Assembly: GCA_016281335.1 (NCBI GenBank)
Contig: JAEEIK010000133.1
Span: 62,001-126,000 of the forward strand
Reading direction: 5' to 3'
Source of the DNA: Lachnospiraceae bacterium
GTDB lineage: Bacteria > Bacillota > Clostridia > Lachnospirales > Lachnospiraceae
DNA: 64,000 nt
The notes beneath the pieces were generated by a model. The model saw only the letters and a list, made by a program, of their open reading frames with translations, made no database searches and was not told the origin of the DNA. This document shows, in pieces, positions 19,784 to 24,364 of this stretch. The position numbers and the translations under genes were made by a program. The stretch's first letter is position 1; each line of letters starts with the position of its first letter.

Positions 19784-21034
19784 ATGGCAGATATCAAAGC
19801 ATTCAGGGCATTGCGCCCGGTAAAGGATATGATAGAAAAGTCCGCAGCTCTTCCCTACGACGTTTACAGCAGGGCAGAAGCAAAGGAAGAAGTAAAAAAG
19901 AATCCCGAATCCTTTCTTGCGATAGACAGGGCTGAAACTTCTTTCTCCGATGAGGTGGATACCTATGCCGATGTCGTATATGAAAAAGCGGCATCCCTGA
20001 TGAAAGAACGCATTGAAAAGGGCGTATATAAGAGTGACGAAAAGCCCTGCTATTATATCTATGAGCAGACCATGGAGGGCAGGGTACAGACCGGTATAGT
20101 TGCCTGCGCTTCAATAGATGATTATGAGAACGGGATCATAAAGAAACATGAAAATACCCGTGCGGATAAGGAAGAGGACAGAGTAAGGCATGTGGATGCG
20201 CTGAGTGCGCAGACAGGCCCCATCTTCCTTGCATACAGGGAAAACAGTCAGATAAGAAAGATCATGGAAAGAGTTAAGGCTGATGAAGGCGCCCTGCTCT
20301 ATGATTTTGTATCTGTAGGAGATATAAGGAACCGCTGCTTCATCATTTCCGATGATGAGGATATAAAGACTATTAAAGAAGCCTTTGCGGGAATAGACCA
20401 TATCTATATTGCGGACGGACATCACCGCTGCGCATCTGCGGTCAGAGTCGGAAAGATGAGAAGAAAAGCTCATCCCGATTATACGGGAAACGAGGAATTC
20501 AATCATTTCCTTGCAGTGCTGTTTCCGGATGAAGAACTTAAGATCATGGATTACAACCGTGTCGTACATGATCTGAACGGTATGGACAAGGAAGCTTTTA
20601 TGGCTGCCATTGAAAAGGGATTCAGTATTTCAGCGCCTGAAGATGAAGAGGTACATCCTTTAGCTAAGGGTGAGATAGGTATGTATCTTGAGCATAAGTG
20701 GTACAGACTTACGATGAAGGATGAGATAAAGAGCGATGATCCGGTGGACGGGCTGGATGTGGCAATACTTCAGAACGAAGTACTCGATAAGTTGCTTGGC
20801 ATAAAAGATCCGAAGACAGACAAGCGGATCGATTTTGTCGGAGGCATAAGAGGACTTAAGGAACTGAAGAAGCGTGTGGATCAGCAGGGAGAGGGTGTTG
20901 CTTTTGCAATGTACCCGACACAGATCAGCGAGCTCTTTGCGGTAGCGGATGCAGGCAGGCTGATGCCGCCCAAATCCACCTGGTTTGAGCCGAAGCTGTT
21001 AAGCGGGATCTTTATTCACGAATTTGAGGAGTAA
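19784..21034 (+). CDS. DUF1015 family protein
   Basis: Conserved family of uncertain function, 416 residues, cytoplasmic. It has the family hallmarks: N-terminal FRALRPV...LPYDV, a central KHENTRADKEEDRVRH block, the IADGHHRCASA motif near residue 208 and a C-terminal FAMYPT...MPPKSTWFEPKLLSGIF. The DGHHR loop is reminiscent of ParB-fold free serine kinases (SerK, SbnI), and DUF1015 genes often lie beside serine-biosynthesis genes in Clostridia. Here the neighbour is threonine ammonia-lyase, so a role in hydroxy-amino-acid metabolism is a reasonable but unproven inference. GGAGG precedes the ATG. Confidence 0.85.
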   Translation: MADIKAFRALRPVKDMIEKSAALPYDVYSRAEAKEEVKKNPESFLAIDRAETSFSDEVDTYADVVYEKAASLMKERIEKGVYKSDEKPCYYIYEQTMEGRVQTGIVACASIDDYENGIIKKHENTRADKEEDRVRHVDALSAQTGPIFLAYRENSQIRKIMERVKADEGALLYDFVSVGDIRNRCFIISDDEDIKTIKEAFAGIDHIYIADGHHRCASAVRVGKMRRKAHPDYTGNEEFNHFLAVLFPDEELKIMDYNRVVHDLNGMDKEAFMAAIEKGFSISAPEDEEVHPLAKGEIGMYLEHKWYRLTMKDEIKSDDPVDGLDVAILQNEVLDKLLGIKDPKTDKRIDFVGGIRGLKELKKRVDQQGEGVAFAMYPTQISELFAVADAGRLMPPKSTWFEPKLLSGIFIHEFEE

Positions 21035-21041
21035 ATAGCAG

Positions 21042-23465
21042 ATGAACAAGAAACTTTACGATCTGATGGACTGGGCTAGGATAGAAGAGGTGGTATACGG
21101 CGAATGTGACCATCCTTCGGATTTTTTGGGACCTCACCATGCAGGCACTTCCACCCTTGTACAGGCATTCTTTCCCGGAGCCGAAGGTGTGCTGATACTG
21201 ATCGAAGGCGCTGAGGGAAGCAGGGGAAAGAAGGTCAAGCAGGAGATCAGCATGGAACTTGCGGATGATGCGGGCTTTTTTGCGGCGCTTGTCGGCGGCA
21301 GGAACATCAGATACAGCTATCTTGTGAGTTATGCTGCGGCAGCCGGTAGCAAGAAAAAGAAGAATGCCGCTTCCGAAAGCCTGATAACGGTAGAAAAGAA
21401 GGATCCGTATTCATTTAAACGCATATTAAAGGCTGAGGAGGAGGAAAGATTCCTCTCCGGCTGTGATGACAAAGCCTTTAAATATATGGGAAGCCATAAA
21501 GCCACGGTTGACGGAGTAAGAGGCTGTGTATTCAGGGTATGGGCGCCTGCGGCTGTCAGGGTATCGGTCATAGGTGAATTCAATAATAACAACGGTCTTG
21601 AGAATCCCATGAACCGTCTGGATGATTCGGGAATATTCGAACTTTTCATTCCGGGCATAGAAGAAGGAACTGCCTACAGATATGAAGTACTGACAAGGGA
21701 CGGGGCCATAGTAAAGAGGGATCCCTATGCGCTGTGTACTGATGAGAAAGGCCTTGATGTCAGCGCATATACCGCTGTCTATGAATGGAAAGACGAAAAG
21801 TGGATGGCGGGCAGAAAGAAGGGAAACTGGGCTTCTAAGCCGTTGAATATATATGAGTTCCATCCCGGCAGTCTTAAGGATAAAACGAAGGCAGGACTTA
21901 AGAAATTTGCTGCTTATGTAAAAAAACTCGGATATACGCATGTTATGATGATGCCGCAGATGAGCGCTGAGGATGCTCTCGGATATCATCCTCTTCAGTT
22001 GTTTACGAGCTCCTTTGATAACGGGGAACCCGAAAAACTTATGCAATTCGTGGATGAGCTTCATGCCGAGAATATCGGTGTGATCATGGAATGGGCACCG
22101 GGGGATTTTTCAAACAGAGCCGAAGCTCTGGGCAGCTTTGACGGAGCGGCTTTGTATGAGTATCCGGATTTTAAGCGCGGAGTTGACCCGAGAACAGGCA
22201 AGTATATCTTCAATTTCGGCAAGGCAGGGGTAAAGGATTATCTTTTCTCTGCACTGGAATACTGGATAGAGAACTATCATCTTGACGGCCTGTGCACTCT
22301 GGATATGGACAGCATCATGTATCTGGATTATTACAGGGGCTACGGTGAATGGGTCCCGAATATCTTCGGAGGAGTGGAACATCTCGAGGCGATAGAGTTC
22401 ATAAAAGAGATGAACAGGAAACTCCATGATAAAAAGAACGGTCTGATACTGATCGCATCACAGGCCGGAGGAAACGGTCAGATAACCGGAAACGGCAGGG
22501 AAGAACTGGGCTTTGATCTGACTACCGATAATAACTGCATAAGAGAACTGGAAGAGTATCTTGCCGCAGATCCTATACAGAGGGCAGGACTTCATCAGAA
22601 ACTTACGGAATCCATGTTGTATCAGTATTGTGAGAATTATCTCTTAGGCATCATGCATGAGAGGTTCTCCTTTGATCAGCCCGGGCTTCTGGAAAAGATG
22701 TGGGGCGATAACGAAAAGAAAGCAGCAAATCTCAAACTCTTATATACCTATCTTGCAATGCATGTGGGCAGAACAGTGAACTTCATGGGGCAGGAGTACG
22801 GTGAAAGAGTAAGCTTCGCTCCTGACGGAAATATCAATCTGTTTGAAAAGAGGAGTGATGAGGAAGAAAAGCTGCTGGAATTCTCAAAAGAACTGGGAAA
22901 ACTCATCAATGCCCATCCTTCGCTTTACGCATATGAAGATAAGGATGAGGGGTTTGAATGGATCAGGGAGACAGCAGCCGCAGATAATGTGCTGGCATTT
23001 ATGAGAGCCGGCAAGAGCGGTGACGAACTGCTGGCAGTATTCAACTTTGCCAATGCTCCGAGAGATGATTACCGTCTCGGAGTGCCTAAAGAGGGTAAAT
23101 ATGAGGAGATATTCGCAAGTGACACAGAAGCATTCGGCGGCGAAAGAAAAAAAGCCGGAGATATGAGTATCAGCAGATACGAAAAGAATGACGGATACGA
23201 GTATTCGGTAAAGCTTTCCCTTGCACCGCTTTCTGCACATGTATACCGCTTCGTGCCTTATACCAAAGAAGAGAATGAGGCAATAGCAAAGAGGCGCAAA
23301 GAGATAGAAGACAGACGGGCAGAGGCCGAAGCAAAACGAAGGGAACTTAAGGAAAAACGAGGTAAGATAAGGCGTGACCTCAAGAAAGAACTGGAAGATA
23401 AGATAAGAAATGCCGAAGCTGCAATAGCGGGCGGCAGTGAAGATAAGGGCGGTAAGAAACATTGA
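21042..23465 (+). CDS. glgB: GlgB-family branching enzyme homologue with all catalytic residues replaced
   Basis: The fold is that of 1,4-alpha-glucan branching enzyme: an N1 domain (about 1-100; ECDHPSDFLGPH), a CBM48 domain (about 150-245; FRVWAPAAVRVSVIGEFN), the GH13 barrel (about 260-640) and a C-terminal beta domain. It then adds a highly charged Arg/Lys/Glu helix (about 740-807). Read against the E. coli enzyme without gaps, the four GH13 regions have lost the active site. DWVPGH reads EWAPGD (350-355). The nucleophile position is Leu420 and the Arg two before it is Cys418. The acid/base Glu is Ser473, and the HD pair is His539-Glu540. It is therefore probably a pseudoenzyme, perhaps a glycogen-binding or regulatory protein. 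It overlaps mscS by one base. Confidence 0.9.
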   Translation: MNKKLYDLMDWARIEEVVYGECDHPSDFLGPHHAGTSTLVQAFFPGAEGVLILIEGAEGSRGKKVKQEISMELADDAGFFAALVGGRNIRYSYLVSYAAAAGSKKKKNAASESLITVEKKDPYSFKRILKAEEEERFLSGCDDKAFKYMGSHKATVDGVRGCVFRVWAPAAVRVSVIGEFNNNNGLENPMNRLDDSGIFELFIPGIEEGTAYRYEVLTRDGAIVKRDPYALCTDEKGLDVSAYTAVYEWKDEKWMAGRKKGNWASKPLNIYEFHPGSLKDKTKAGLKKFAAYVKKLGYTHVMMMPQMSAEDALGYHPLQLFTSSFDNGEPEKLMQFVDELHAENIGVIMEWAPGDFSNRAEALGSFDGAALYEYPDFKRGVDPRTGKYIFNFGKAGVKDYLFSALEYWIENYHLDGLCTLDMDSIMYLDYYRGYGEWVPNIFGGVEHLEAIEFIKEMNRKLHDKKNGLILIASQAGGNGQITGNGREELGFDLTTDNNCIRELEEYLAADPIQRAGLHQKLTESMLYQYCENYLLGIMHERFSFDQPGLLEKMWGDNEKKAANLKLLYTYLAMHVGRTVNFMGQEYGERVSFAPDGNINLFEKRSDEEEKLLEFSKELGKLINAHPSLYAYEDKDEGFEWIRETAAADNVLAFMRAGKSGDELLAVFNFANAPRDDYRLGVPKEGKYEEIFASDTEAFGGERKKAGDMSISRYEKNDGYEYSVKLSLAPLSAHVYRFVPYTKEENEAIAKRRKEIEDRRAEAEAKRRELKEKRGKIRRDLKKELEDKIRNAEAAIAGGSEDKGGKKH

Positions 23466-24364
23466 TGACAGACACCGGAGTATCCGCAAATACCATAATA
23501 GAAGCAGCAGAGAGCGGCAAGGAGGAAATGGTTGAGAGCATCGGCATGGTCCAGCAGTTTCTGAATGAGCTGCCGGAAAAGTTTTTCCGTTTCGGAGCGA
23601 AACTGTTATTTGCAATTGTTGTGCTCTTTATCGCTTCGAAGGTGATCAAGCTGATCAGGCGCCTGGTGAAAAAATCACTGATCCGCGCAAAAGCGGATAT
23701 CAGCATCAGGAATTTCCTGGATTCGCTGATAAGGGTAGTGCTTTATGCGCTTGTGCTGATATATCTTGCAACCTATTTCGGCGTTGAGAGCGCAAGCCTT
23801 ATAGCGCTTTTGGGTTCTGCCGGAGTGGCAGTGGCGCTGGCATTGCAGGGCAGTCTTTCAAATCTCACCGGAGGAATACTTCTGCTGATACTGAAACCCT
23901 TCAGGATAGGTGACTATATAAAGGAAGACAGTAAAGGCAATGAGGGCACAGTCACCGAGATAGGCCTGTTCTATACAAAGCTGCTAACCATTGATGAAAA
24001 GACGGTGATATTGCCGAACGGTTCACTGGCCAATACCTCGCTTACAAACAATAATGCGGCAACAACCAGAACTCTGGTGCAGTTCTTTGATATCTCCTAT
24101 GATGCGGATATAAAGAAGGCAAAAGAGCTGATAAAAGAAATACTCGCTAAGGACGAACGCGTGATAAAAGAAAAGCCTTTAAAGATCTATGTTGATTCAC
24201 TGGAGGCATCGGGCGTCAGGATAGGTGTAAGGGCCCAGGTAAAGAGCGGAGAACTCTTCGATTTCAAATGGGATTTCATTGAAAGGGTTAAAGCGGTATT
24301 TGAAGAGAACGGTATAGAGATACCCTATAACCAGCTTGATGTACATATTAAGAGAGAAGATTAA
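23465..24364 (+). CDS. mscS: Small-conductance mechanosensitive channel MscS
   Basis: Tension-gated channel that releases solutes on osmotic downshift. The 299-residue protein has three membrane helices (about 40-65, 87-105 and the pore helix near 115-140 with GSAGVAVALALQGSLSN), followed by the beta domain starting LKPFRIGDYI and the C-terminal cytoplasmic cage. The ATG at 23465 shares one base with the previous stop; a TTG three bases earlier is less likely. The N-terminal 40 residues are a short amphipathic extension. It lies between the GlgB-like gene and queA. Confidence 0.95.
   Translation: MTDTGVSANTIIEAAESGKEEMVESIGMVQQFLNELPEKFFRFGAKLLFAIVVLFIASKVIKLIRRLVKKSLIRAKADISIRNFLDSLIRVVLYALVLIYLATYFGVESASLIALLGSAGVAVALALQGSLSNLTGGILLLILKPFRIGDYIKEDSKGNEGTVTEIGLFYTKLLTIDEKTVILPNGSLANTSLTNNNAATTRTLVQFFDISYDADIKKAKELIKEILAKDERVIKEKPLKIYVDSLEASGVRIGVRAQVKSGELFDFKWDFIERVKAVFEENGIEIPYNQLDVHIKRED

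Follow-up and report, generated by a model that had tools for sequence, protein, structure and literature searches.

The Locus and Its Gene Neighborhood

The window analyzed here, i.e., the whole stretch of 64,000 nucleotides from a Lachnospiraceae genome, carries on its forward strand a gene (positions 21042–23465) for a protein of 807 residues. As judged from the open reading frame, Pfam, alignment, a structure model, and Foldseek, this protein has the full-length fold of a branching enzyme without the catalytic triad, and it is referred to as pseudo-GlgB. It lies between a DUF1015 gene (19784–21034, forward strand), a conserved upstream neighbor according to Pfam and locus comparison, and an mscS-like gene (23465–24364, forward strand). 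This placement, already given in the preliminary description, was recovered from the gene content of the window and Pfam, and it assigns the gene to the subfamily of syntenic GlgBs, recognized by DUF1015 upstream and mscS downstream. The same order, either complete or partial, surrounds many of the orthologues.

The ATG of the mscS-like gene shares one base with the pseudo-glgB stop codon, the two forming the string TGATG at positions 23463–23467, and this overlap makes coupled expression of the two genes, via translational coupling, plausible. The listed mscS reading frame opens three bases upstream of that ATG, with a TTG at 23462 that is probably not the true start.

Domain Organization and Predicted Fold

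The protein begins with a pair of features that overlap: the N-terminal helices, MNKKLYDLMDWARIEEVVYGE (21042–21104), defined by near-invariant residues and the model, and the GlgB_N domain, or N1 (residues 11–98; 21072–21335), which is among the best-kept parts of the copies that lack the triad. Within the former, Y6, W11, E15, and Y19 are almost invariant in the triad-less copies examined; of these residues, all but E15 are likewise almost invariant in the copies that retain the triad. A CBM48 follows (residues 150–230; 21489–21731), in which Asn183 replaces the usual Trp in the genus alignment, then the barrel, the Alpha-amylase_C domain (residues 640–736; 22959–23249), and a charged C-terminal helix seen in the predicted structure (residues 742–797; 23265–23432), all on the forward strand. 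GlgB_N, CBM48, and Alpha-amylase_C are matched in Pfam with E-values from 1e-18 to 1e-20, and the catalytic-domain model at just 2.4e-6. Among the NCBIfam models, the protein passes the branching-enzyme cutoff of TIGR01515 (474.9 vs 463.95) and remains below the curated cutoffs of PRK12313 (518.4 vs 577) and PRK05402 (517.2 vs 741).

One AlphaFold model, computed from the window protein together with 37 proteins of the loci, reached a mean pLDDT of 85.9 and a pTM of 0.83. Foldseek matched this model to the solved GlgB 3k1d with a TM-score of 0.90 on the target and an rmsd of 3.4; the best E-values belonged to Cyanothece structures, yet these superposed with an rmsd near 16 and TM-scores of 0.76–0.77. 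Given these matches, the fold is predicted to be intact, and its order of N1, CBM48, barrel, and C domain is that of E. coli GlgB, 3k1d, and the Cyanothece enzyme 5gqw, all of subfamily GH13_9. By both domains and fold, the protein is thus a GH13_9 GlgB by descent, and its earlier description as a full-length GlgB homologue, in which the N-terminal domains, the barrel spacing, and the reading frame are intact, agrees with the 807-residue frame, the Pfam domains, and the gap-free spacing of the regions considered next.

Loss of the Catalytic Site

Residues were mapped by phmmer alignment to 3k1d and 5gqw, and by MAFFT alignment with E. coli K-12 GlgB. All four GH13 regions are altered, in the very positions first noted from the sequence, and both alignments agree on them. 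Region I reads EWAPGD (residues 350–355; 22089–22106) in place of DWVPGH. Region II, GLCTLDMDSI (416–425; 22287–22316), has Cys418 for Arg and Leu420 for the nucleophile Asp. Region III, ILIASQA (469–475; 22446–22466), has Ser473 for the acid/base Glu, and region IV, LGIMHER (535–541; 22644–22664), has Glu540 for the transition-state Asp and keeps His539; all are on the forward strand. The alignment is free of gaps between the flanking conserved motifs, and the distance from DG (415–416) to YLDY (427–430) is unchanged, so that a hidden register shift is absent and no insertion or deletion could restore the register.

Compared with a GH13_9 GlgB, the window protein therefore lacks the Asp/Glu/Asp triad (it reads L420, S473, E540), the region I signature, and the Arg, and it bears the charged C-terminal helix. 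The claim that every catalytic residue was gone holds for the triad, the Arg, and the Asp and His of region I; it is too broad for Asp415-Gly416 and His539, which remain. At the level of sequence, these replacements establish the window protein as non-catalytic.

Retention and Selection within the Genus

In 33 of 35 genomes of the window's genus, an open frame free of internal stops covers almost the full length of the query; the other two genomes have completeness values of 67% and 81%. Thirty copies were read, namely, the window and 29 loci, three of the 33 not being included. None has the nucleophile Asp (0/30) or the transition-state Asp (0/30), 13 of the 30 have the acid/base Glu, and 15 different triads occur among them. 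Whether orthologues carry the same replacements, a check proposed at the outset, had another outcome than expected: the nucleophile and the transition-state Asp are absent throughout the 30 copies, and the window shares its exact set of replacements with L004/L085 only, the closest relative at 83% identity.

The ratio dN/dS, also proposed as a check, proved low, with values of 0.029–0.076 in seven of the 14 genus pairs tried, those with dS below 1. For the pair formed by the window and L004, the ratio is 0.045 at a dS of 2.6, i.e., saturated, and for this reason it carries no weight; neighboring genes of the same pair give 0.009–0.066 at dS values of 1.4–2.7. When restricted to the barrel, dN/dS is 0.020–0.102 in seven genus pairs with dS below 1, and a barrel under such strong constraint between close species is more than a passive spacer.

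That the gene is instead a decaying relic awaiting deletion is the least probable of the explanations considered. The triad-less copies do evolve faster than those with the triad, as seen from their long branches in the gene tree; against decay stand the low dN/dS, the open frames, the retention in 33 of 35 genomes, and the near-invariant N1 residues, and we regard it as ruled out by the first three. The view of pseudo-GlgB as a maintained pseudoenzyme, triad lost and under purifying selection, is thus sustained by retention, frames, and dN/dS, in a genome that has two GlgBs with an intact triad besides.

Repeated Loss across the Family

The family was sampled with 160 genomes spread evenly over it (159 genera, at least 90% complete), and weak copies were sought again with an N-terminal profile in 71 of the 160. 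Many of the sampled genera have no full-length copy. In all, 114 copies from the sample were available for reading, a small number of which are truncated or masked; the triad is present in most of the copies read (termed DED, or live) and absent in many (termed dead), where the replacements differ. Outside Lachnospiraceae, the complete N-terminal signature seems to be absent: a search of 118 genomes of the class gave only two matches below an E-value of 1e-30, both inside the family and one of them the window, and seven more genomes of the class matched more weakly, at 6e-24 to 2e-16.

A host tree was built from rpoB of 87 genomes, of which 84, each from another genus, were used, 58 with DED and 26 without. 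G000, G116, and G145 had no rpoB match and are not in the tree, nor are eight DED hosts (G035, G089, G113, G122, G124, G143, G171, and G184). G067 (odd RpoB frame), G187 (non-syntenic copy), and G071 (partial, kept for the nucleophile) were dropped from the count of losses, and G065 was scored as live since its triad reads DED, though its regions I and IV are altered. On this tree, the triad was lost a minimum of 20 times, assuming no regain, and when branches with weak SH-aLRT support were collapsed, the count fell to 17 (support below 70–90), 15 (below 95), and 9 (below 99). The nucleophile alone (62 kept, 23 lost) gave 17 losses, and 14, 12, and 8 at the same levels of collapse. Shuffled labels required a mean of 22.8 losses (17–26), and the closeness of the observed number to this mean indicates that the losses are scattered almost randomly over the tree.

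The gene tree requires fewer losses than the host tree, 7–10, and it rejects a single dead clade (p-AU 4e-68, 61 rows); this tree lumps the fastest copies, and the AU test shares the same long-branch pull. With this caveat, both the rpoB tree and the AU test contradict the idea that the dead copies all descend from one ancient loss. The correspondence between genes and hosts was examined by comparing the non-barrel domains: when the 60 live copies are ranked by similarity to that of a dead host, the copy of its rpoB sister (the best one where there are several) falls within the top three for 12 of 19 dead hosts and outside it for 7 of 19, so that some statements of orthology are firmer than others. 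Altogether, the syntenic gene appears to have lost its active site in about 15–20 independent events by rpoB, or 7–10 by the gene tree, counts that assume neither regain nor transfer between lineages.

In seven copies (L073, L074, L075, L077, L080, L082, and L208), the nucleophile, changed from Asp to Asn, is the only altered residue of the triad; the partial copy L224 has the same change and is readable only there. Such copies look like recent catalytic deaths, handy for catching the first step.

Residue 421

The preliminary description named one way in which the window protein might still be catalytic, i.e., through shifted residues such as Asp421 acting as the nucleophile. An acidic residue, Asp or Glu, indeed occupies position 421 in each of the 30 genus copies, as against Ala in 60 of 60 live copies, and also in 12 of the 23 dead copies that lack D420, taken one per genus and including L106. 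Over 28 dead copies, again one per genus with L106 representing the window's genus, the position is Asp in 12, Ser in 7, Asn in 3, Gly in 3, and Glu, Ala, and Met in one each. It is the Ser, Asn, and Gly of other dead lineages that argue against a moved nucleophile, together with the start of the predicted helix at residue 422, which would place Asp421 at its N-cap, and with the genus copies, of which all 30 are missing the transition-state Asp and 17 the acid/base Glu as well. We consider residual catalysis of this kind very improbable, and an alignment slip that hides Asp421 as the true nucleophile is ruled out by the spacing of the motifs and the variety at this position.

Helices have known preferences for the residue at their N-cap. 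In light of the model, the change at 421 may best be understood as a helix-capping repair that took place once the substrate no longer mattered.

Where Constraint Lies in the Dead Copies

Sites were called conserved when at least 90% conserved in the 60 live copies, and their fate was followed in 18 dead copies of other genera, chosen not by the N-terminus but with a full-length profile, A1, for which both live and dead rows had been used. Still conserved in these are 13/15 sites of N1, 34/40 of CBM48, 21/23 of the C domain, and 70/191 of the barrel, which amounts to 68/78 non-barrel vs 70/191 barrel sites (p 7e-15, for sites that are not independent). The 30 genus copies give 15/15, 28/40, 11/21, and 79/191, respectively (p 1.3e-5), and a set of 26 dead copies, some found with the N-terminal profile, gives 14/15, 26/40, 15/23, and 59/189. 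A bias from selecting copies by their N-terminus was discarded as the cause, the recount with the 18 copies of profile A1 having led to the same result. Mean pairwise identity is 0.46 for N1 and 0.70 for the barrel among live copies, and 0.65 and 0.51, respectively, in the genus; the most strongly lost sites cluster, along the sequence, near the GH13 regions. Constraint in the dead copies has shifted away from the active site of the barrel.

Regarding glucan binding, the evidence is mixed. Trp640 is retained in 18/18 dead copies of other genera and in 30/30 genus copies. Asn183 (21588–21590), at the place of the CBM48 Trp, is found in the window and L085 only, Trp being present in 25 of the 30 genus copies and Phe in three. 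The residues of the A1 surface glucan site, mapped from the Cyanothece enzyme, are unconserved even in live copies, and the surface sites mapped from mutants named in PDB titles, each of which we took, partly by assumption, to belong to a given site, gave no clear answer besides Trp640. Asn183 and the unconserved A1-site residues make glucan binding by the window protein uncertain.

The charged C-terminal helix had been regarded as a gain of the dead protein, and this did not hold, as tails are common in live members: a tail of 20 residues or more past position 736 is present in 53 of 60 live copies and in 14 of the 18 dead ones from outside the genus, and one of 60 residues or more in 30 of 30 genus copies. 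Live syntenic GlgBs frequently bear long Lys/Ala-rich or repeat tails, and those of L018, L031, L116, L121, and L132 extend up to about 270 residues past 736. The other GlgBs of the window's own genome, L002 and L003, are free of tails.

These tails bear on the proposal that the kept function is tied to mscS or the membrane, where the charged helix or the Lys-rich tails would dock and the stored glucan would be coupled to the osmotic state. The TGATG overlap in the window speaks for it, as does an MscS gene recognized downstream in 54 of the 84 DED rows of the family sample, a set that includes second, non-syntenic GlgBs, and in 19 of the 30 other rows, counted as dead although L214 (masked) and L224 (cut) are unreadable as such and L227 falls outside the subfamily. 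However, many orthologues miss either the tail or a recognized mscS neighbor, and the gene order may merely mirror an operon of unrelated functions; we consider this proposal improbable.

Other GlgBs in the Same Genomes

The search for a second, intact glgB in the genome, suggested along with the first description of the gene, found two, L002 and L003, both with a triad intact by sequence. L003, on contig C43, is shorter, with a frame of 622 residues that is 31% identical to the window protein. A second GlgB was found in all 30 of the genomes tested, a set made up of G065, with its altered regions, and 29 genomes whose syntenic copy is degenerate. Of these second GlgBs, 29 read DED and the remaining one is truncated at the end of its contig; the second GlgB is split over two frames in G041 and over two contigs in G130. 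Within the genus, the only other GlgB match of G029 is divided between two abutting frames, and just fragments are seen in G007. A glgA gene was found in 30 of the 30 tested genomes.

Among the matches listed, a hand count gave 12 of 58 live hosts with one GlgB match only; a lone GlgB thus occurs in 0/26 dead vs 12/58 live hosts (Fisher p 0.015, with kinship ignored). The presence of a backup GlgB fits a role in permitting the catalytic loss, but it leaves the retention of the protein unexplained.

One explanation for this retention is that the protein serves as the non-catalytic subunit of a hetero-oligomer with a live GlgB, whose affinity, chain-length choice, or placement it would alter, instead of serving by itself as an adaptor for glycogen. 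It would agree with the second GlgB in 30 of 30 tested genomes, with N1 and the N-terminal helices being among the best-kept parts, and with the precedent of plant ISOAMYLASE 2 (ISA2), a GH13 paralogue presented in the accessible text of PMC12510319 as conserved, noncatalytic, and a binding partner of ISA1. On the other hand, in the 12 of 58 live-copy genera without a second GlgB among the matches listed, the kept function cannot depend on one, and we consider a hetero-oligomer unlikely, if still worth weighing, as the general explanation.

Proposed Function

Loss of the active site, repeated while the gene was kept, suggests a second job that needs no catalysis. We favor, with a probability of roughly 0.55, an ancestrally bifunctional GlgB in which selection keeps a non-catalytic role, probably that of a glycogen-associated adaptor or subunit. 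The syntenic GlgB of Lachnospiraceae, encoded at the DUF1015-glgB-mscS locus, would ancestrally have been an active branching enzyme whose second, non-catalytic function was borne by the module of N1, CBM48, and C domain. With branching supplied by another GlgB, the catalytic site would have been lost repeatedly, the second function holding the protein under purifying selection; in the window's genus, the loss is complete and extends to all copies read. The protein would then be an alpha-glucan-associated adaptor or regulatory subunit. Its carbohydrate-binding surfaces may hold glycogen, and its N-terminal helices and charged C-terminal helix may hold a partner, which could be the live GlgB, GlgA, or a protein of the membrane. 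According to the sections of PMC6243121 available, branching enzymes have glucan-binding sites off the active site in both CBM48 and the C domain, and it is these domains, along with N1 and the N-terminal helices, that are best kept here. Against this reading stand Asn183 in the window protein and its nearest relative, the unconserved A1-site residues, the C domain of the genus copies, with just 11/21 sites kept, and the constraint that persists on the barrel. The glucan-sensing or scaffolding role deemed conceivable in the preliminary description is likewise a hypothesis.

A bolder reading, which we hold only tentatively, is that branching is not the main selected function of these proteins: a glycogen-organizing or signaling role of N1, CBM48, and C domain would be essential even in the live members, catalysis would be optional and dropped by some 15 or more lineages, and the active site would then tend to be rebuilt for stability, with Ala421 giving way to an N-capping residue.

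Relation to Known Systems

Several systems resemble that of the favored adaptor or subunit, each with differences. In plants, ISA2 is a GH13 paralogue that is conserved although noncatalytic and that has kept a part in determining alpha-glucan structure (PMC12510319, as far as its accessible text describes it); ISA2 belongs to the isoamylase-type debranching subfamily GH13_11 of plants (PMC12516185, seen in part), and differs in history, as here there are many separate losses at one bacterial locus. In Criblamydiaceae and Waddliaceae, a GlgA-GlgB fusion contains a bacterial branching-enzyme domain that the available portion of PMC11046441 reports as inactive. There, it is the fusion that inactivates the domain, within a defective pathway and with another branching enzyme, GlgB2, also present (same source), whereas the window gene is free-standing and under purifying selection. 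For some archaea, that portion also marks "one inactive isoform" of GH13 among the glycogen enzymes. Finally, PTST2/FLO6 are non-catalytic CBM48 proteins of the starch granule that unite partners or glucan primers, and PTST1 combines coiled coils with a CBM48 and has no GH13 barrel; both belong to plants (PMC6243121, accessible sections).

The usual description of a pseudoenzyme is, to our knowledge, that of one old event. In the present case, a bacterial gene whose neighbors recur has apparently lost catalysis many times within a single family and has yet been kept, which provides natural replicates, and the surfaces that are kept point to where a putative non-catalytic job of a branching enzyme would lie.

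Among the papers listed from the open literature, a scope that takes in neither preprints nor subscription journals, no title or abstract beginning describes a GlgB of Lachnospiraceae that is catalytically dead and yet maintained. The accessible parts of the papers on GlgB N-termini and branching-enzyme phylogeny (PMC6339891 and PMC4236520), and of that on gut glycogen genes (PMC10395257), note duplications and no dead copy. The last of these assigns two or three glgB homologues to Dorea longicatena and Blautia obeum in the portion available. As the window protein still passes the TIGR01515 cutoff, GlgB copy counts in gut bacteria, such as those in the accessible text of PMC10395257, may include dead proteins.
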